A DNA stretch of 45,828 nt from Deltaproteobacteria bacterium (GTDB lineage Bacteria; Myxococcota_A; Polyangia; Polyangiales; JADJMO01): positions 1-45,828 of the forward strand of contig JANYDK010000136.1 in assembly GCA_025363655.1 (NCBI GenBank), read 5' to 3'. The notes below the pieces were generated by a model that saw nothing but the letters and a program-made list of their open reading frames with translations, made no database searches and was not told the origin of the DNA. Made by a program: the position numbers and the translations under genes. Below, one piece after another: positions 4,978 to 45,828 of the stretch (position 1 is the stretch's first letter; each line of letters starts with the position of its first letter).

Positions 4978-5565
4978 ATGCTTCGGCGACCGGGCCTTTG
5001 GGTCGTGCTCGCATCGCTCTCGGCCACTTCCCTCGTCGGTTGCCCGCGCGATCCCGGCCCCGAACGCGACGTCGGCGTCTGCCAACTGATCGACGTCGGT
5101 CCGTCGTTCGAGCCCGACGACTCCGCGCTCGACGCCGCGGACGCGCCCGACGTGAGTGACGTGAGTGACGTGAGTGACCCGCCGAAGTCGCTCGATGCAG
5201 GAGCTCTCGTCACGCGTGCGCAAATCGACGCGATTTTCGAGGTCTCCTGCTCCTTCAGCACGTGCCACGGGCAAACGGGGAACCCGACGGCCGGCCTCTA
5301 TTTGCCGAAAGCCGTCGATGGTGACTGGTACCCGCAGCTCGTCGACGTTCGCTCCAAGGAAAACCCGGACATGCTCCGCGTGAAGCCGTACGATCCGGCC
5401 AAGAGCTGGATGGCCCACAAGATCCTCGGCGACAACTGCACCTTCACCCGCGCCTGCGCCAAGAACGACTGTGGCGACCGTATGCCGCAGGCCAACGACT
5501 CGCTTCCTGACGACGAAATCGACACCATTCTCCGCTGGATTCGCCAAGGAGCCCCCGCGAAATGA
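4978..5565 (+). CDS. Cytochrome-like lipoprotein with CX4CH motif
   Basis: A 195-residue exported lipoprotein. The signal sequence starts at ATG 4978 and ends in a lipobox (TSLVGC, Cys near residue 22). A low-complexity acidic linker (DAADAPDVSDVSDVSD) contains three in-frame copies of the 9-bp unit GTGAGTGAC. The globular part shows VTRAQIDAIFEVSCSFSTCHG, then GLYLPKAVDG, and ends DDEIDTILRWIRQGAP. This is the architecture of the planctomycete-cytochrome-C-like (PSCyt) and DUF-type lipoproteins common in Myxococcota. The putative haem site is C-S-F-S-T-C-H, with four residues between the cysteines instead of two, plus a further Cys pair around NCTFTRAC. Haem attachment is therefore doubtful, and a disulphide-bonded fold is the alternative. 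Its stop overlaps the ruvA start (ATGA), so the two are translationally coupled. Confidence 0.75.
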   Translation: MLRRPGLWVVLASLSATSLVGCPRDPGPERDVGVCQLIDVGPSFEPDDSALDAADAPDVSDVSDVSDPPKSLDAGALVTRAQIDAIFEVSCSFSTCHGQTGNPTAGLYLPKAVDGDWYPQLVDVRSKENPDMLRVKPYDPAKSWMAHKILGDNCTFTRACAKNDCGDRMPQANDSLPDDEIDTILRWIRQGAPAK

Positions 5566-8283: not shown

Positions 8284-9897
8284 GTGAAGGCGCCCATCTT
8301 TCAATTCAACGAGCAGCGTGAGGAGCTCGTGCAGTCGGTCGTCGATCGCGTCGTCGCCGAAGCGCGCGATCCGATGCTCCTGCTCAACGACGCGGCCTAT
8401 CACGAGATCCGTCGCCTCGAGTCGAGTCACGATCGCGATGAGCTCGGCCGCTGGAGACGCATCGCGCGGAGCATCGGCGGGCTCGACGCCAGCGGCGCGG
8501 TCGAGCTCCTGCGCGAGACCGTCAGCTATCACGCGCGCGACGTCGCCGGCAATTTCGATCGACGCGTCTACACGCTCGCGTCGCGGGTCGCGCCGGCCGG
8601 TCTCTCGGTGCTCCTCAGCCCGCACGTCGTGCTCGAGCGATCGATCCTCGAGGTGCTGCAAGGCGAAGGGCTGGCCGATCGCATCTGGACCTCGGGACCG
8701 ATCGAGCGCATCCGGCGCCTCGCCGAGATCGGCACGCTCGTCTACGTGCCTACGCACCTCTCGAACCTCGACAGCCCCGTCTTCGCCTACGCGCTGCTGT
8801 CCTCGCGCCTGCCACCGGTCACCTACGGGGCCGGCAAGAACCTCTTCACCAACCCGGTGCTGTCGTTCTTCATGCGAAACCTCGGCGCGTACCGCGTCGA
8901 TCGTCGCCTCAAGCACGAGCTCTACAAGCAGGTCCTCAAGACCTACTCCTGCATGCTCATCGAGCGGGGCTTCCATAGCCTATTTTTCCCGGGTGGAACG
9001 CGTTCACGCAGTGGCGGCGTCGAGCGCAAGCTCAAGCTCGGACTCGCGGGCACCGGGCTCGAAGCGTTCGTCCGCACGCGCCTCCCGAAGCGCCCTGTGG
9101 GTGCTGGCGCCGTCTCGCGGCAGGTGTTCTTCGTCCCCGCGACCATCAACTACATGCTGACGCTCGAGGCCGAGACGCTGATCGACGATCACCTCAAGGA
9201 GGCGGGCAAGGCGCGCTACATCATCGAAGACGACGAGTCGACGCGCATCGGCCGCATCACCTCCCTCGCGCGCAAGCTGATGCAGATGGAGGGGAGCTGC
9301 GCGGTGCGCTTCAGCGATCCGGTCGACTGCTTCGGCAACGTCGTCGACGACGAAGGGCGCTCGTACGACCGGCGAGGGCGTCGCGTCGATGCCTCCACCT
9401 TCGTCGAGTCCATCGCCGACGGCGAGGTCGTGATGGACGCAGCACGCGACGTCCAATACACGCGCGAGCTCGGCGACGTCGTCATCGACGCTTACCTTCG
9501 CGACACCATCGCGATGCCGACCCACGTGGTGGCGACCGCCGCGTTCGCTCGTCTCCGCGCACACGCTCGAAGCAGCGACGATCTCTTCGCGCTGGTGCGT
9601 CGTCGGGACGAGGTCGTAGTCCCTTATCGCGAGCTCATCGCCGAGATCCAGTCGACCCAAGCGCGGCTCCTCGAGCTCGAAAAGGCGGAAAAAATAGTGC
9701 TCGCGCCCGCCGTGCGAGGAGCGACTGCGGAGGAGCTGCTTCGCGACGCCGAACGCGCGCTCAACGGCTACCACACGTCACCGGTGCTCAGGTCGCGCGA
9801 CTCGGGCGTCGCCCTCCTCGATCCGAAGGTGCTCCTCTACTACCAGAATCGACTCGCCGCGCACGGTCTGGCGTGGGCCGGAGGAACGTCGCGATGA
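8284..9897 (+). CDS. Glycerol-3-phosphate/lysophosphatidate acyltransferase-like protein (PlsB/PlsC superfamily)
   Basis: A 537-residue LPLAT-superfamily protein, larger than PlsC and nearer to PlsB-type enzymes, which transfer an acyl group to glycerol-3-phosphate or a lysophospholipid at the inner membrane. Motif I is the H-x4-D of VPTHLSNLDSP (about residues 157-167), motif II is LGAYRVDRRL, and motif III is LFFPGGTRSRSGGVERKLK, where the usual acidic residue of the F-x-E-G-T/G-R motif is Gly. A later VFFVPATINYM fits motif IV. The start is GTG 8284, giving MKAPIFQF; there is no ATG alternative. The C-terminal 200 residues look helical and are not recognised. The stop overlaps the start of the GpsA-like gene (ATGA), making a coupled lipid-metabolism pair. 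Confidence 0.82.
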   Translation: MKAPIFQFNEQREELVQSVVDRVVAEARDPMLLLNDAAYHEIRRLESSHDRDELGRWRRIARSIGGLDASGAVELLRETVSYHARDVAGNFDRRVYTLASRVAPAGLSVLLSPHVVLERSILEVLQGEGLADRIWTSGPIERIRRLAEIGTLVYVPTHLSNLDSPVFAYALLSSRLPPVTYGAGKNLFTNPVLSFFMRNLGAYRVDRRLKHELYKQVLKTYSCMLIERGFHSLFFPGGTRSRSGGVERKLKLGLAGTGLEAFVRTRLPKRPVGAGAVSRQVFFVPATINYMLTLEAETLIDDHLKEAGKARYIIEDDESTRIGRITSLARKLMQMEGSCAVRFSDPVDCFGNVVDDEGRSYDRRGRRVDASTFVESIADGEVVMDAARDVQYTRELGDVVIDAYLRDTIAMPTHVVATAAFARLRAHARSSDDLFALVRRRDEVVVPYRELIAEIQSTQARLLELEKAEKIVLAPAVRGATAEELLRDAERALNGYHTSPVLRSRDSGVALLDPKVLLYYQNRLAAHGLAWAGGTSR

Positions 9898-10868
9898 GCC
9901 AGGAGCACACCAAGTCCAAGGTCGCCGTGATCGGCGGCGGCGCGTGGGGCATCGCGCTCGGAACTGCGGCGCAGAACACGGGGAGCGACGTCCTCGTCTA
10001 CTCGCGTCGTCCCGGGCACGTCGACGCTCATGGTCTGCGCGTGACCTCGTCGATCGCCGATGCCACCGCGCATGCGCGCCTGCTCGTGCTCGCGGTGCCG
10101 AGCGAGCACGTCCGCGGCATCGCCCGTGAGATCGGCGGGCTCATCGACGGACGCCACGCCATCGTCCACGGCGTGCGTGGCCTCGTCGGCGACGGTTCCG
10201 AAAGCGACGAATTGGTGCCCATTTCTGCGGTGTTGCGTGAAGAGACGCCGACGCGGCGCATCGGTGCCCTCGGCGGACCGGTGCTCACGCACGAGCTCGC
10301 CGCCGGTGCGCCGAGCATCATCGTCGTCGCCTCGCGCTATCCCGATGTCATCCACGTCGTCCGCGACGCCTTCGGTGCGCCGTCGCTCCGCATCTACGCC
10401 ACCGACGATCTCACCGGTCTCGAGTGGGCGTCGGCGCTCACGGGCATCCTCGCGGTCGCCGTCGGCTTCGCGCGTGGTGTCGGGCTCGGCGCCGGCCTCG
10501 TCTCCGCCTTCGTCACCCGCGCGGTGCACGAGGCCGCACGCATCGGTCACGCCGCCGGCGCCGAAGAGCGCACGTTCTTCGGTCTCAGCGGCTTCGGCGA
10601 CCTCCTCGCCGCCATCGCCGAGGAGTCACGACCAGAGGTGCGCCTCGGGGAGAGCGTCGCGCGCGGGGGCAGCGTCGACGACGCCATCGCCGGGGCCGGT
10701 CAACGCATCGAGGCCATCGAGCTCGCCCCACGGGTCGCCGCCTTCGCGAAAAAGCACCATGTTTCCGCGCCTATTTTCACCACCATCGCCCACGGCATCT
10801 TCGCCCGCAGGCCGGCCGCCGAGTTGGTGCAAGATCTCATGCTCGGACCGATCACCGGTCCGGCGTGA
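9894..10868 (+). CDS. GpsA-like NAD(P)-dependent glycerol-3-phosphate dehydrogenase homologue, catalytic lysines absent
   Basis: A 324-residue protein with the GpsA fold: Rossmann GxGxWG (VAVIGGGAWGIALG), LVLAVPSEHV, LGGPVLTHELAAGAP, and the C-terminal GLSGFGDLLAAI. The start is ATG 9894, supported by GGAGGA 8 nt upstream and an ATGA overlap with the acyltransferase. Compared with true GpsA, the lysine of the KGLE segment is Arg (GVRGLV), the catalytic lysine of the ALKNV motif is Thr (ALTGILAVAVG), the Asn of GANA is Gly, and the SRNRR motif reads SRPEV. The segment carrying RNxxYLP near the N-terminus is also missing. It probably binds NAD(P) but either uses another substrate or is inactive. 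A canonical gpsA should exist elsewhere in the genome. Confidence 0.8.
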   Translation: MSQEHTKSKVAVIGGGAWGIALGTAAQNTGSDVLVYSRRPGHVDAHGLRVTSSIADATAHARLLVLAVPSEHVRGIAREIGGLIDGRHAIVHGVRGLVGDGSESDELVPISAVLREETPTRRIGALGGPVLTHELAAGAPSIIVVASRYPDVIHVVRDAFGAPSLRIYATDDLTGLEWASALTGILAVAVGFARGVGLGAGLVSAFVTRAVHEAARIGHAAGAEERTFFGLSGFGDLLAAIAEESRPEVRLGESVARGGSVDDAIAGAGQRIEAIELAPRVAAFAKKHHVSAPIFTTIAHGIFARRPAAELVQDLMLGPITGPA

Positions 10869-10916: not shown

Positions 10917-11696
10917 ATGACCGAGCTGGCCGCGCGCGCCGCCGTGGGCTTCCTCCGGCAGATCATCGCCGGCCGGCTCGACGTCGTCCGCGGGTGGCTC
11001 GCCCCCGACGTCACCATCGAAGATCCGCGCATCGGTCGCGTCTTCGCCAGCGGCATCGCCAAGCACCTCGACACGCAGCACTATTGGCTCGCCAGCGTCG
11101 GCGCCACCGTCGAGCCCATCGGCTGCACCGGCGAGAGCGGCCGGGCGGTCGCCGAGCAAATCCTCCACCTCGGCTTCGTCACCATCCACCTCGCGATCGC
11201 CACCGACGAAGGTCCGCAAGGCGTGCGTTCGATTCGCCTTTATCAGAGCAACCTCCCTCTCGCCGGGCAGCACGCCGGCGCACGGCCGCCGATGCTCCCC
11301 GCGCGCTCGTTCGCGTTGCATGGCGCCGTCGGCGATCACCTCGGAGCCCTCGCGCAAGGCGATCTCGAGCGTGCGCTCGGCGCCTTCGAAGACGACGCGA
11401 TCGTCGTCGAACCGAGCGGCGGCGCGGCGATGTACAGCGGTCTCGACGAGATTCGCTACTACTACTCGGCGATCCTCGCCCAAGGCGGCGTGCCGCTCGA
11501 GCCTTGCACGGTCACCGACGACGGCGTCGGCTGCGCCATCGAATACAACGTCCACCGATGGGGCCCCCACTCCATCCCCGCGCAGGCTGGGGTGATGGTC
11601 TATCAGCGCGGGCTCACCGGCCGCATCGCCAACTTGCGCATGTACGACGACATCGACGCGCCACTCGGTCGCAGCGCTCCGCCGCCTGCCCGCTGA
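10917..11696 (+). CDS. Tandem NTF2-like / SnoaL-like domain protein
   Basis: A 259-residue soluble protein made of two related alpha+beta barrel halves. The first half (residues about 1-115) has FLRQIIAGRLDVVRGWLAPDVTIEDPRIG, and the second (about 135-250) has GDLERALGAFEDDAIVVEPSGG followed by YYSAIL and a strand RIANLRMYDDI. The motif of a helix, then 'D-l-e-r-al-a-F-a-dDAvv-ep', is characteristic of the NTF2/SnoaL/ketosteroid-isomerase-like superfamily. These proteins bind small hydrophobic ligands or act as isomerases or hydratases, and the fold alone does not tell which. There is no signal peptide. The start is ATG 10917, 48 bp after the GpsA-like gene, so it may belong to the same transcript. 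It converges on yhbY. Confidence 0.75.
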   Translation: MTELAARAAVGFLRQIIAGRLDVVRGWLAPDVTIEDPRIGRVFASGIAKHLDTQHYWLASVGATVEPIGCTGESGRAVAEQILHLGFVTIHLAIATDEGPQGVRSIRLYQSNLPLAGQHAGARPPMLPARSFALHGAVGDHLGALAQGDLERALGAFEDDAIVVEPSGGAAMYSGLDEIRYYYSAILAQGGVPLEPCTVTDDGVGCAIEYNVHRWGPHSIPAQAGVMVYQRGLTGRIANLRMYDDIDAPLGRSAPPPAR

Positions 11697-16054: not shown

Positions 16055-16650
16055 CACTTCTTCCTCAGCGTGAAGGTCGCCTCGCGGACGACGTGTCCGT
16101 TGTCGCTGCTCGCGCGCAACGCTCCGGTCACCGTGCGCGCATCTCCACTTCCCTGCACGTCGGCGAGGAGCGTGCCCCACATTGCTGGGCTCGCCGTCGG
16201 ATCGGGCGTCGCTTGCGCGGTGAGACGCGTGCCCTCGAGCATGCCGTGCAACTTGAGCGTGCCGAGCGCTCCCGTCGATTCACCGGTGACCTCGCCATCG
16301 CCCGCCGGCAAGACGAAGCTGAGCGTGCCAGGGCCGAGCAAGCCAGACTCTTCGTTCTCGAAGGGCGGCGCGCTGTCGGGCGTCTGCACAGCGGCAGCTT
16401 TCGAGTCGTAGCTTCCGGTGAAGGTCGCCGTCGCTGTCGCCGTCTCTGCGCCCTTCGCGCTCGCCGACCCGCTCGCTGGCGCAGGCACGTTGCTCGAGCC
16501 GTTCGCGTTCGATGCGCTGCTCGATGTGCCGCTCGAGTTCCCGCCCGACGGACCTCCGCCCTTCTCGCCCTTGCACGCGAGGTCGCCCGTGATCCACGCG
16601 AAGGCCATGAAAACGAGACCGTTCGCGATCCGACGTTTCGCTCCGCTCAC
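16054..16650 (-). CDS. Lipoprotein of unknown function with Ser/Gly/Ala linker
   Basis: A 198-residue exported protein, not recognised. A basic N-terminus and hydrophobic segment end in a lipobox (TGDLAC, Cys near residue 26). Next is a long Ser/Gly/Asn/Ala linker (residues about 30-70), then a compact beta-rich domain containing TATATFTGSYDSK, GTLSFVLPAGDGEVTGES, GMLEGTRLTAQATPDP and ending REATFTLRKK. This alternating-strand pattern suggests a small beta-sandwich or barrel exposed in the periplasm. The GTG start (16650) overlaps the sctQ stop (GTGA), and the stop overlaps the aminotransferase start. Its place right after a type III secretion gene suggests an envelope role, but I find no secretin or pilotin motif. 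Confidence 0.65.
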   Translation of the reverse strand: MSGAKRRIANGLVFMAFAWITGDLACKGEKGGGPSGGNSSGTSSSASNANGSSNVPAPASGSASAKGAETATATATFTGSYDSKAAAVQTPDSAPPFENEESGLLGPGTLSFVLPAGDGEVTGESTGALGTLKLHGMLEGTRLTAQATPDPTASPAMWGTLLADVQGSGDARTVTGALRASSDNGHVVREATFTLRKK

Positions 16651-17825
16651 GGCAGACGCTCGACGATGCGAACGCCGAGGACGCCGTCGACGTCGACGAG
16701 CTCTCCGCGCCCGACCTCGCGGCCCCCGACACGCAGCACCACCGACTCGCCGATGCGTCGATCGAGGACGACGACGTCACCCGGTCCCATCGCCGCCCAT
16801 GCGCGCGCGGGCATCGTCACGGTGCCCGCCTCGGCGCGAATCTGCACCGGCATGTCGGCGAGCGCTTCGGCGAGGGGCGTCTCGCCGATGGCTGGAACTT
16901 CTACCGTTTCGCCCGAGGAGCTCGGAGGAGCGTCAGTCATGGGAGTCTCCTTGTCGGCCGTCGGCGGCTCCGGCGCAAGCTCGACGATGCGCACGCCCAC
17001 GCGAGCTCGCCCGTCGGGGAGCGTGATGGCCGAGAGGCCGTGGGTCGTGCCGGGGACGACGAGAAGGCACTTGCCACGCTCGAGCCCGTCGATGACGACG
17101 ACATCCCCCTCGCGCAGGGCCATTTCGCGCCGCGGCGCCCATCCCGCGGCGAGGACCACGTCGACCGTCAGCGGCATTTCGCCGAGAATCTCCAGGGCTC
17201 GCGTCGCAGGAAGGGGCAGCGGCGGCGTCGACCAGGACACGCTCACGAGGAGCCGCGCAGCCGACTTGAGCGCACCGAGTCGCACCGAGAGGTCGAGCTG
17301 CATCACCTCGGTCGTCGCGTCACTCGTCACGTGACCTACGTGACCTACGTGACCTACGTGACCTACGTGACGTGCGCGCACCGCCGCCGTGGTCGCGCCG
17401 ACGCCGCTGATCGAAGCCTGCTCGAGCCCGACTCGGCGCGCGAGCCAGAGAAGCACGCCCGCGAGCGCGCCTTCGACCTCGGGATCGACGCTGCGGGCAC
17501 GGGCGACGCGCGGGAGGGTCTTTCCGCCTGCGAGCGAGGTCACCAGCGCGAGCGCGAGCTCGGCTTCGACCTCGATCGCGATGCTCCCCCCAGGATGATC
17601 GAGCAAGGTCGTCGGACCGCGCGCGCCCAAATCGGAGACTGTGCCGTCGACGAGCTCACGCCGGCGAACGTCGAGCGTGATCGCATGTCCGACGAGCTCG
17701 GAGAGGCTCATCGCAACCGCGCGCGTCGAGAGCTGTGCAAAGCCCGAACGCAGCGCGGCCACCGCCGCGGGCTCCCGTGGCCGCACGCGAGGTAGCGATG
17801 GCCACGGGAACGGCGAAATCGGCAC
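16647..17825 (-). CDS. sctQ: Type III secretion cytoplasmic-ring protein SctQ/FliN-like, two SpoA domains
   Basis: A 392-residue protein of the SctQ (YscQ/HrcQ/SpaO) family, relatives of flagellar FliM/FliN that build the cytosolic sorting ring. The N-terminal region (1-230) is family-like but loosely conserved. Two SpoA domains follow: the first near residues 215-285 (EMPLTVDVVLAAG ... GDVVVIDG ... RVGVRIVEL), and the second near 320-392 (DMPVQIRAEAGTV ... PGDVVVLDRRIGESVVL ... GRGELVDVDGVLGVRI). A four-fold HVG repeat at about 151-162 comes from a 9-bp tandem repeat. The GTG start 17825 has no clear ribosome site, whereas an internal ATG at 16940 has AAGGAG 6 nt upstream and would make the second SpoA domain alone. 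No other type III gene is in the window. Confidence 0.82.
   Translation of the reverse strand: MPISPFPWPSLPRVRPREPAAVAALRSGFAQLSTRAVAMSLSELVGHAITLDVRRRELVDGTVSDLGARGPTTLLDHPGGSIAIEVEAELALALVTSLAGGKTLPRVARARSVDPEVEGALAGVLLWLARRVGLEQASISGVGATTAAVRARHVGHVGHVGHVGHVTSDATTEVMQLDLSVRLGALKSAARLLVSVSWSTPPLPLPATRALEILGEMPLTVDVVLAAGWAPRREMALREGDVVVIDGLERGKCLLVVPGTTHGLSAITLPDGRARVGVRIVELAPEPPTADKETPMTDAPPSSSGETVEVPAIGETPLAEALADMPVQIRAEAGTVTMPARAWAAMGPGDVVVLDRRIGESVVLRVGGREVGRGELVDVDGVLGVRIVERLP
16938..16952 (-). promoter_or_regulatory. Internal ribosome binding site and start for a C-terminal SctQ product
   Basis: On the minus strand, AAGGAG (16952-16947) is followed by six bases and ATG (16940-16938) in the sctQ frame. 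Initiation here would give a 97-residue protein beginning MTDAPPSSSGE that contains only the second SpoA domain. In Yersinia YscQ, Salmonella SpaO and Shigella Spa33, such internal starts make the short form needed for ring assembly. The site is stronger than that of the full-length start. Confidence 0.7.
17331..17371 (+). repeat. 9-bp tandem minisatellite inside sctQ
   Basis: Four head-to-tail copies of GTGACCTAC (17331-17366) followed by a partial copy GTGAC. On the coding (minus) strand it reads GTAGGTCAC, giving four Val-Gly-His / His-Val-Gly units in SctQ. The period is a multiple of three, so gain or loss of units would lengthen or shorten the protein without a frameshift. Confidence 0.9.
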
Positions 17826-23548: not shown

Positions 23549-28144
<4,596 letters not shown>

Positions 28145-33419: not shown

Positions 33420-35222
33420 TCACGCCGTCGCGCGTACTTCTGTCTTCCCGCCGCCGTACAGCTTCTCGACTTTGTCGCCGTAGACCTGCCAGACGTTGCG
33501 GCGCTTGAGCTTCATCGACGGCGTCAGCATGCCGTTTCCGACGGTGAAATCTTCCTTCACCAACTCGAACTTCAGCACCTTCTCGAACTGCTTGAAGTCG
33601 CCGCTGTAGGCCTCGAGCTCGGCGCGGATGAGGTTCTTCACCTTCGGATCGGCGAGGAGCGAGTCGTCGCTGAGCGACTCGATGCCGTTCTCCGGCTTCT
33701 TCGCCCACTCGCGCAGCTCGGTCATGTCGGGGACGATGAGCGCGACGTTGTACGGCTTGTTCGAGCCGTGCACCATCACGTTGGCGATGTACTGCGAGAG
33801 CTTGAGCTTCTCTTCGAGCGGCGAAGGCACCACGTACTTGCCGTTCTCCAGCTTGTACTGCTCCTTGATGCGGCCCGTGATGTAGAGGTACCCATTGCGA
33901 TCGAGGCGCCCCATGTCGCCGGTCCGAAACCCACCATCCTCAGTGAAAACGGCCTTATTTTCCTCGGGCCGGTTGTGGTAGCCCTTCATGATGTTGGGCC
34001 CGTAGAGGATGACCTCGCCGTTCTCCGGGTCGTTCGTGATCTTGTGATCGAGCACCACGCGCACGAGCGGAATCGCGCGACCGACCGACCCGATGCGACG
34101 ACGTCCGGGCGCGTTGGCGGTGGCGATCGGCGAGGTCTCGGTGAGACCGTAGCCTTCGTAGACCATGACGCCGATGCCATCGATGAACTCCGCGACCTCG
34201 CGTGAGATCGCCGCGCCGCCGCTGAACGCATACTTGAGGCGACCGCCGAAGCGCGCGCGCACCTTTTCGAAAACGAGCCGATCGGCCGCTTCGAAGGCGG
34301 CGACCTCGAGCAGCGTCAGGCGCCCGCCCTCACGTCGCTTCTTCGCCGCTGCGAGCCCGGCTGCCACCAGCTTCTGCACCGGCTTCGGCTTCTCGCGAAT
34401 CTGCTTCTGCACGCGATCGTAGATGCGGTTGAAGATGCGCGGCACGCTCATGATGAGGGTCGGACGCACCTCCGCGAGGTTGTCGATGATCTTGTCGACC
34501 GACTCGGCGAGCGCCATCGCCGCGCCCATCGAGAGCAGACAGTGCAGCTCGACGGTCTGCCCGAACGAGTGCGCCCAGGGAAGGAACGAGAGGCTCCGAT
34601 CCTCCTGCTCCATGTCCATGATTTCATGGACGGCGCTGACGTTGCTGGCGATGTTGCCGTGCGAGAGCATGACGCCCTTCGGCTCGCCGGTGGTGCCGCT
34701 GGTGTAGATGAAGCCGCAGATCGACTCGGCGTCCGGATGCACCGCCGCGACAGGCTTGAGGCGCCCTTCGGCGAGCACCGACTCGTACGTGTGCGTGTCC
34801 GTCGTCGAGCCCTCGAAGGCGATGACGTGCTTCAGCGAAGGAATCGACGAGACGTAGTCCTTCGTCTTCGCGTAAATCGACTGGTTGGCGACGAGGAGGA
34901 CCTTCGCCTCGCAGTCCTTGAGGATGAACTGCCACTCCTTCTCGGCCTGCGCCTCGTACATCGGCACGTAGCAAGCCTCGAGGCCGTACACCGCATAGGC
35001 AGCGACCGCCCACTCGACGCGGTTGTTGGCGATGACCGCGACCTTGTCGCCCTTGCCGACACCACGCGCGGCGAGCCCGGCGCGAAACGCGTCGACGAGC
35101 CGTCCGAACTCACCGTAGGTGATCCACCGCCACGAGCTTCCGACCTTCGTACCGAAGAGCTCGCGCCCTGCGTAGTGTTCCACCGACTGTTCGACCAGTT
35201 CGACGAGATTGGCGTACTTCAT
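33420..35222 (-). CDS. Long-chain fatty-acid--CoA ligase (AMP-forming)
   Basis: A 600-residue adenylate-forming enzyme that activates long-chain fatty acids to acyl-CoA, feeding beta-oxidation or lipid synthesis. The ATP/AMP signature is YTSGTTGEPKGVMLSHGN (residues about 174-191). The L motif and fatty-acid gate lie in LPWAHSFGQTVELHCLL, the adenylate motif in YEGYGLTETSPIATAN, and the hinge and Asp in GFRTGDMGRLDRNGYLYITGRIKEQYKLENGKYV. The end of the chain shows FTVGNGMLTPSMKLKRRNV, typical of long-chain ligases like FadD15 or FACS. The start is ATG 35222 with AGGAGG about 11 nt upstream; a longer reading adds a 17-residue unlikely tail. The gene is not in an obvious operon: its upstream neighbour ends 84 bp away. 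Confidence 0.93.
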   Translation of the reverse strand: MKYANLVELVEQSVEHYAGRELFGTKVGSSWRWITYGEFGRLVDAFRAGLAARGVGKGDKVAVIANNRVEWAVAAYAVYGLEACYVPMYEAQAEKEWQFILKDCEAKVLLVANQSIYAKTKDYVSSIPSLKHVIAFEGSTTDTHTYESVLAEGRLKPVAAVHPDAESICGFIYTSGTTGEPKGVMLSHGNIASNVSAVHEIMDMEQEDRSLSFLPWAHSFGQTVELHCLLSMGAAMALAESVDKIIDNLAEVRPTLIMSVPRIFNRIYDRVQKQIREKPKPVQKLVAAGLAAAKKRREGGRLTLLEVAAFEAADRLVFEKVRARFGGRLKYAFSGGAAISREVAEFIDGIGVMVYEGYGLTETSPIATANAPGRRRIGSVGRAIPLVRVVLDHKITNDPENGEVILYGPNIMKGYHNRPEENKAVFTEDGGFRTGDMGRLDRNGYLYITGRIKEQYKLENGKYVVPSPLEEKLKLSQYIANVMVHGSNKPYNVALIVPDMTELREWAKKPENGIESLSDDSLLADPKVKNLIRAELEAYSGDFKQFEKVLKFELVKEDFTVGNGMLTPSMKLKRRNVWQVYGDKVEKLYGGGKTEVRATA

Positions 35223-35306
35223 GGTGCAGGAGTCCTCCTCGGGAGAGCACGAAGCTACGGCCGGATGAGGCACGCGTAAACCACCGTCCGCGAAACGAGA
35301 CTCGAA

Positions 35307-36356
35307 TCAGCCGAGCTGCCGCGCGTGCCAGAGCAGCATTTCCACGCTCCCCGGACCACGGAGAAACGGCTGATCGTGCGGCCCGATCGCCAGGCGGAAG
35401 TCGTGCGGGACTTTTCGCGCCGAGAGCGCGGCATCGAGCGCCTCGACCGGCTTGCGAAAGACGTCCAGCGTGCTCGTCATCAGGTGCAAAGGGCGCGCGC
35501 CGGCAGCGAAGGCCTTTTCGATCCGCGCAGCCCACGAAGGCGCCTCGGCCACGGAGATCGCCGCCTGAACGCATCCGATCGAGCCGAGCTCCTGCGCGCG
35601 CCGCACCCCGACGCCGAGCGATGCATAACCACCCAATGAAACCCCGTCGACCCCGAGGTGCTCGGGTCCGGCGAGCGCCGGCGTCTCCGAGTAGAGCCGC
35701 GGGAGGAGCACGTCGAAGATCCATTGCGTGTGCGCGTCGATCGCCCACTCGACGTTCGGCCCTGTTTTCCAGATGTTCGGCGTGTACGGGCAAGCGACGA
35801 CCATTCCGCGAAATGGGCTCTTCGAGAGCTCGTCACGCACCTCGACGCACCGCTCGTCGCTCGCCATCTTGCCGAGCCCTTCGCGGGTGATCGTCGCCGG
35901 CGCGCGCAGGTGTGCATACCCCTCGGCGACGCCGTAGCGCTTCACCCAGGCATACGCGCCCATCTCCTCGTCGACGGTCTCGGCGAGCCCATGCAAGAGC
36001 ACGAGCAGCGGCACACGCTCCTTCTTCGTCAAGTGTCGCGGTACCAGCACGACCGCGCGCCGCGCGATTTTCGGATCACCCGGCAGCTTCCAGTCGTGGA
36101 GCGCGAGCTCGTCGCCGGCCACGCGCTCCTTCGGCTCCGCCACCGGGTAGGGCGCATCGGGCAGCTCGGGCACCGTCGGCGCGCTCGATGCGGTCGAGCT
36201 CGAGCTCGAAATGGAAGGCGCAGTCGAAGGCTCGGTCGTGGGCGCGTCCATCCTCGAGCTCGCCGGCGGCGTCGATTCGTGCGCGCCCGGCTCTCGACGA
36301 CACGCTGGAATCGCCAGCATCGCCAAGGCTTCGAGCGCGCGTCGCCTTCCAATCAC
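35307..36356 (-). CDS. Alpha/beta-hydrolase (esterase-like) lipoprotein
   Basis: A 349-residue exported hydrolase. The N-terminal signal has a lipobox-like IPAC near residue 19, followed by a Ser/Thr/Pro/Ala linker to about residue 65. The catalytic domain shows strand plus oxyanion motif VPLLVLLHGLAET, the nucleophile elbow GVDGVSLGGYASLG (Gly-x-Ser-x-Gly), and a late His in GPHDQPFLRGPGS that would complete the triad. An acid could be the Asp in STLDVFRKP. The fold resembles esterase/PHB-depolymerase-like alpha/beta hydrolases, and the substrate cannot be read. The start is ATG 36356. It is divergent from the ATP synthase genes across about 230 bp. It sits upstream of the acyl-CoA ligase on the same strand, so a shared role in fatty-acid release and activation is possible but unproven. 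Confidence 0.75.
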   Translation of the reverse strand: MIGRRRALEALAMLAIPACRREPGAHESTPPASSRMDAPTTEPSTAPSISSSSSTASSAPTVPELPDAPYPVAEPKERVAGDELALHDWKLPGDPKIARRAVVLVPRHLTKKERVPLLVLLHGLAETVDEEMGAYAWVKRYGVAEGYAHLRAPATITREGLGKMASDERCVEVRDELSKSPFRGMVVACPYTPNIWKTGPNVEWAIDAHTQWIFDVLLPRLYSETPALAGPEHLGVDGVSLGGYASLGVGVRRAQELGSIGCVQAAISVAEAPSWAARIEKAFAAGARPLHLMTSTLDVFRKPVEALDAALSARKVPHDFRLAIGPHDQPFLRGPGSVEMLLWHARQLG

Positions 36357-36589
36357 GCCTCACTCTAGCGTGTCGTCCAACGGAGGGCGCCACGCCGCGC
36401 ACCCTTCCGACAGCCGAGATTCCCCATCGCCGAAATGCCCGCGAGCCCCATGGTCGGGAGGAGCGGGCGAAATAGGCGCTTCACGGCCCAAGAACGCTCG
36501 GCGAGGGGCAACGCCGTCCTCGCCTTTGACCTTCCGGAGCGCCCTTGCTACGAACCGGCCGACCAACGCGAGAGAGCAGTTTTTCTCGC

Positions 36590-36937
36590 GTGTTCCGTGT
36601 TCGAGCCGCAGGTGAAGAGCCGTTGTCGAAGTGGCGAGATCTCGGAGACGTCGGCACCGTCGGCATCGAGTTCATCGTCTCGATCGGCGTCTGTTACTTC
36701 GCGGGTCACTGGCTCGATGTCCGCTACTTCGGCGGCCACGGGTACGGCGACCTCGCCGGCTTCGCCTTCGGTCTCGTCGTCGCCTTCCGGGCGATCGTCA
36801 TGGCCGGTCGGCGCGCCACCCTGAGCGTCGAGCGCGTGGAACGAGAAGAGCGCGAAAAGCGCGAACAACGCGCGGCCGAGCGCGAGTTGTACGAGCAACG
36901 AGAGAAGCATGAGCGCAGCCGTGAGCGAAACTCCTGA
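36590..36937 (+). CDS. AtpZ/AtpI-like small membrane protein of the ATP synthase operon
   Basis: A small protein with two membrane helices (VGIEFIVSIGVCYFAGHWLDV and YGDLAGFAFGLVVAFRAIVMAG), followed by a long charged coiled-coil tail rich in Glu/Arg/Lys. The GxEF...GxWLD pattern and position match the AtpZ/AtpI-like (F0F1-associated) family, which helps assemble the c-ring or supply Mg2+ to the synthase. The start is uncertain. I give GTG 36590, but TTG 36623 (after AGGTGAAG, giving LSKWRDLGDVG) and TTG 36545 are also in frame, and the first conserved residues come only after 36623. It overlaps atpI by 29 nt. Confidence 0.7.
   Translation: MFRVRAAGEEPLSKWRDLGDVGTVGIEFIVSIGVCYFAGHWLDVRYFGGHGYGDLAGFAFGLVVAFRAIVMAGRRATLSVERVEREEREKREQRAAERELYEQREKHERSRERNS

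Positions 36938-45410: not shown

Positions 45411-45828
<418 letters not shown>

Follow-up and report, generated by a model that had tools for sequence, protein, structure and literature searches.

The closest described relatives of the gene studied here are the NAD(P)-dependent G3P dehydrogenases GpsA of Escherichia coli and GPD1 of humans, members of an enzyme class that supplies glycerol-3-phosphate (G3P) for membrane lipids. Human GPDH relies on residues K120, K204, D260, N205, T264, R269, N270, and Q295, and single substitutions raise its barrier by 5.3 (K120A), 3.1 (K204A), 9.1 (R269A), and 5.6 (N270A) kcal/mol (PMC12874384). Our search of the open-access literature found no paper on a myxobacterial GpsA paralogue of the kind described below, nor one on a G3P dehydrogenase pseudoenzyme.

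In the 45,828-nucleotide stretch of DNA that we analyzed (the window), a forward-strand gene of 324 aa encodes a protein with the GpsA fold; it begins with an ATG at 9894 and its stop codon ends at 10868, as a preliminary description of the region had placed it. Like E. coli GpsA and human GPD1, the protein has the two-domain fold over its whole length, the dinucleotide-binding fingerprint, an equivalent of Asp260, and both Pfam domains (PF07479, 95 bits against a cutoff of 25; PF01210, 76.5 bits against a cutoff of 23.1). With each of the 14 NCBIfam GpsA models, it scored below that model's own cutoff (best score, 208.1 bits versus 257). The AlphaFold2 model, for which 43 orthologues served as input, is confident (pLDDT 94.3; pTM 0.92). 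A structure search with this model returned GpsA or GPD1 proteins as all of its top sixteen matches, and the closest solved structure was Coxiella GpsA (3k96; Z 38.5, rmsd 1.9 Å, 308 residues). The fingerprint VAVIGGGAWG (residues 9 to 19; 9918 to 9950, forward strand) is retained, and its glycines G14, G16, and G19 (GxGxxG) are invariant in 47 of 47 rows of the family to which the window gene belongs (type B) and in 35 of 35 rows of lysine-bearing GpsA. The view that fold and nucleotide site are kept is thus well founded.

The active site is another matter: unlike GpsA and GPD1, the window protein lacks equivalents of K120, K204, N205, T264, R269, and N270. Of the eight human residues, seven (all except Q295) were mapped by alignment, and D260 is the only side chain to survive, as D236. 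K120 is replaced by R95 (codon at 10176 to 10178, forward strand), K204 by T183 (10440 to 10442, forward strand), N205 by G184, and T264 by A240; the two lysines are catalytic in GPDH. The alignment bears out the Lys-to-Arg (95), Lys-to-Thr (183), and GAN-to-GAG (N201 to G) changes that were first read from the window protein. That reading also had SRN becoming SRP, which holds only with a one-residue shift; when the proteins are aligned without gaps, with GDL and the downstream Gly252 as anchors, SRN instead pairs with R246-P247-E248 (10629 to 10637, forward strand), so that the phosphate-binding Arg (R269) is replaced by Pro (P247) and N270 by Glu (E248). An arginine, R246, stands one position upstream of the lost R269 equivalent; judging from this alignment, the phosphate-binding arginine of GPDH is either moved or gone. 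In addition, the YLP-containing stretch, which has 31 residues in lysine-bearing GpsA, is about 17 residues shorter in the window protein.

Orthologues of the window gene occur in 121 of the 183 genomes of the order, and also in another family within the class. The replacements recur in orthologues that match the window copy at only 35 to 63% identity, so the change goes far beyond chance. Inspection of 79 type B sequences showed R95, D236, R246, and P247 in every one and E248 in 78, and the loop after strand 2 had 12 to 18 residues in nearly all, compared to 31 in lysine-bearing GpsA; the RNxxYLP segment had rightly been called missing. The comparison set of lysine-bearing GpsA was as uniform in the opposite state: all 38 sequences have K95, K183, N184, D236, T240, and S246-R247-N248. 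Across the 79 type B rows, residue 183 varies among mainly hydrophobic amino acids (V, T, M, A, N, or I, and Lys in none), so no substitute proton donor has become fixed there. Close type B pairs gave dN/dS values of 0.06 to 0.25; the changed protein is therefore under purifying selection. The loss of catalytic residues might be taken as the mark of a decaying, functionless gene copy, but that explanation, to which we give almost no weight, is refuted by these dN/dS values, by the invariant new motif, and by reading frames that remain open in almost every one of the roughly 120 orthologues. Two otherwise good orthologues (G182:C785 and G016:C108) each contain one internal TAG stop, reflecting either sequencing error or recent loss. 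The preliminary description had argued for more than drift at one site, as the fixed replacement set (79 of 79) and the selection values confirm. On this comparative evidence, the window gene is a member of an old, closely conserved side branch that has shed nearly all of the working parts of GpsA.

Immediately upstream lies the gene for its partner, P0002 (8284 to 9897, forward strand; 537 aa), an acyltransferase of the PlsB/GPAT class (PF01553, 57.9 bits) with the HxxxxD motif as THLSNLD and the sequence FFPGGTRSRSG. Its core aligns with PlsB-type 9vuq and human GPAT1 8e4y, the latter ranking first in a fold search; as in PlsB, GPAT1, and DHAP acyltransferases, the HxxxxD, AG.NL, GA..[IV].R, and GG/GTRSR blocks are in register. 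Residues H158, D163, GGTR (237 to 240), and R242 of P0002 are invariant across 42 sequences. P0002 differs from PlsB and GPAT1 in its length (537 aa versus about 800 to 970), and where the HRSHMD block of PlsB has Arg, P0002 and its relatives have Leu, Ser, or Ala. Against the NCBIfam PlsB equivalog it scored 58.7 bits (cutoff, 618.5). PlsY is absent from the genome, which raised the idea that P0002 is the sole G3P acyltransferase; this was ruled out by a separate, longer PlsB-like G3P acyltransferase with a GPAT_C domain on contig C130 (L159; about 33893 to 36811, forward strand). With that second protein present, P0002 is not necessarily the principal G3P acyltransferase of the cell. Nor is the distribution of PlsY complementary to that of the pair, since 45 type B genomes also carry PlsY.

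The stop codon of the acyltransferase gene and the start codon of the GpsA-like gene overlap by 4 bp (ATGA, 9894 to 9897), and this −4 spacing is the commonest in every type of pair that we distinguish below, accounting for most pairs. Both genes occur in 119 of the 183 genomes of the order and neither in 56, while only 2 have the GpsA-like gene alone and 6 the acyltransferase gene alone; because these genomes are related, the significance of the association is descriptive only. The coupling to an acyltransferase that had been noted from the overlap is thus both real and ancient (119 of 183 genomes with both genes versus 8 of 183 with one). A large clade of the order has lost this adjacency: the distances between the two genes are 0.74, 1.17, and 1.18 Mb in the single-contig genomes G144, G145, and G146, all three of which still carry both. 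Such unlinking would suit a GpsA-like protein whose function has nothing to do with the acyltransferase, with adjacency as the relic of an old operon. We consider this unlikely: co-occurrence is near perfect even where the genes are unlinked, the ATGA overlap is found in all types, and the trees of the two partners match. Downstream of the pair, on the same strand, is a gene encoding a SnoaL-like domain (10917 to 11696).

The same arrangement is found with intact enzymes. In what we call type A pairs, both within the order and across the phylum, a lysine-bearing GpsA stands beside a homologous acyltransferase (for example, L114 to L125, L140, L143 to L147, L149, L151, L153, L008, and L009). 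Gene order, strand, and, in most cases, the 4-bp overlap are those of the window pair; unlike the window protein, type A GpsA has both lysines, the Asn, the Thr, and SRN. Type C (L024, L025, L137 to L139, L141, and L142) has gone further than type B, having also lost the equivalents of Arg95 and Asp236: these proteins have HAIG[SA] where KG is expected and neither SRN nor RPE. All type C proteins have a GxGxxG or GxGxxA fingerprint, and all but L139 are adjacent to the acyltransferase. Loss of the Rossmann motif from L024, L025, and L139 was considered and ruled out by the full-length proteins: L024 and L025 start with MSGLTVAVIGGGRWARAL, and L139 contains VSIAVIGNGRWARAL, i.e., GxGxxA. Type X (L148 and L150) has Arg95 and lacks RPE.

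In quick tree searches with the trait columns removed from the GpsA alignment, the type B proteins grouped together (SH-aLRT 97), and a single branch (SH-aLRT 99) set every lysine-less protein apart from the rest; the tree of the acyltransferases shows the same division (SH-aLRT 99). We therefore rejected the idea that each lineage lost its lysines separately, although the long type C branches leave some doubt. From type to type, the acyltransferase has the same catalytic blocks, except for a switch in YGAG[L/K]NLF and the divergent blocks of L008 and L009. The switch residue, 185 of P0002 (YGAGKNLF; codon at 8836 to 8838 of the window), is Lys nearly throughout types B, C, and X (Val in the type B pair L005), and beside lysine-bearing GpsA it is Leu in nearly all acyltransferases (Arg in L008 and L009); this is possibly a change that co-varies with GpsA type. 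Since lysine-bearing GpsA holds the same place beside homologous acyltransferases, the chemistry was apparently lost while the partner was kept: in the simplest history suggested by the sequences, catalysis was lost a single time from an active GpsA that was cotranslated with an acyltransferase, and the protein was retained as a partner.

The shared fold, and a position identical to that of lysine-bearing GpsA beside a homologous acyltransferase, could also mean that the window protein is still a G3P dehydrogenase, working by a modified mechanism and supplying G3P to the acyltransferase. We regard this as very unlikely, because the K120, K204, R269, and N270 positions are all changed in every type B orthologue, when changing even one is costly (PMC12874384), and because motif-intact gpsA genes exist elsewhere in the genome. 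The genome (9.0 Mb, 96% complete) contains three GpsA C-terminal domains; a search for a canonical gpsA, as suggested in the preliminary description, found two further gpsA-like genes (L012 and L014) with KG, KN, GDL..T, and SRN intact and every tested residue present.

A new substrate and a regulatory role were the two possibilities originally raised for the protein, and they are still the right pair of alternatives; because sister lineages with a more eroded site (type C) keep the partner, the choice now tilts toward a noncatalytic role. The reading we favor, at a probability of about 0.5, is that the window protein is an NAD(P)-binding pseudo-dehydrogenase that acts as a cotranslated scaffold, or as an NAD(P)H- or ligand-responsive regulatory subunit, of the PlsB/GPAT-class acyltransferase. 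On this model the retained NAD(P) site would still bind NAD(P), reduction of DHAP would be lost and probably all redox catalysis with it, and the protein would form a physical complex with the upstream acyltransferase and alter its activity. In favor of such a subunit, the partners are kept even when unlinked, and type C proteins without Arg95 and Asp236 are still paired. Against it, one clade has the two genes far apart, and Arg95, Asp236, Arg246-Pro247-Glu248, and His92 are conserved as strictly as a catalytic site. A more specific version, which we offer tentatively and think rather less likely than not to hold in full, is that the dehydrogenase of an ancient Myxococcota pair became a pseudoenzyme that senses NAD(P)H or a lipid precursor and governs how fast the acyltransferase works; a reductase that derives from GpsA and acts on acylated DHAP is an equally open alternative to such a redox-sensing subunit. 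We found no bacterial precedent in the open-access literature for a redox-sensing subunit of membrane-lipid synthesis.

The strict conservation of a new polar set in the former substrate site, together with the retained cofactor fingerprint and a partner of the GPAT class, is what would be expected if the protein were an active NAD(P)H reductase of another substrate, most naturally of its partner's product: acyl-DHAP (or alkyl-DHAP) would be reduced to acyl-G3P. The residues at hand could serve such a reaction, in that an Arg95-Asp236 ion pair could replace the lysines and polarize the carbonyl and Arg246 could hold the phosphate. This is possible, but we doubt it: position 183 is not fixed and usually carries a hydrophobic side chain, and type C proteins remain paired in spite of having neither Arg95 nor Asp236. 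The genome does encode a homologue of alkyl-DHAP synthase (contig C130, 38636 to 40765, reverse strand; best matches, 2uuu and 4bby), a point for the reductase, yet this gene adjoins the other PlsB-like gene, about 2 kb away, instead of the window pair; the C130 region is possibly an ether-lipid gene neighborhood apart from the window. Across the order, alkyl-DHAP synthase is present in 79 of 121 type B genomes and absent from 42, and it is present in 29 of the 62 others, i.e., in 29 genomes that have the synthase and no type B gene. With a distribution that tracks the pair so loosely, an ether-lipid-specific role of the pair is not supported, and neither is the unusual head-group or ether-lipid step proposed at the outset. 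A pseudo-dehydrogenase subunit thus remains the reading that we favor over a reductase.

If the protein does control the acyltransferase, it would represent a new control point in bacterial phospholipid synthesis. The three main pair types, all in one operon position, form a natural series (an active-looking type A, a lysine-less type B with a new fixed motif, and an eroded type C) that would let the change from enzyme to partner protein be tested directly. The good Pfam G3P dehydrogenase scores also mean that automatic annotation likely calls such genes gpsA in spite of the missing reaction residues, and metabolic models resting on those names would be wrong.

Several other features of the window deserve mention. 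A 1,531-aa frame (23549 to 28144, forward strand) combines a Ser/Thr kinase domain, TPRs, a GAF domain, a sigma-54 activator domain, and a Fis-type HTH. A 16S rRNA gene (Rfam RF00177) occupies 45411 to 45828 on the forward strand and is cut at its 3′ end by the end of the window. Short perfect repeats occur in two places: at 5149 to 5178, 3.3 copies of the 9-bp unit GACGTGAGT lie in a small reading frame and encode DVS repeats, and at 17329 to 17371, 4.8 copies of a 9-bp unit encode GHV repeats within a gene for a FliM/FliN C-terminal domain protein (16647 to 17825, reverse strand).
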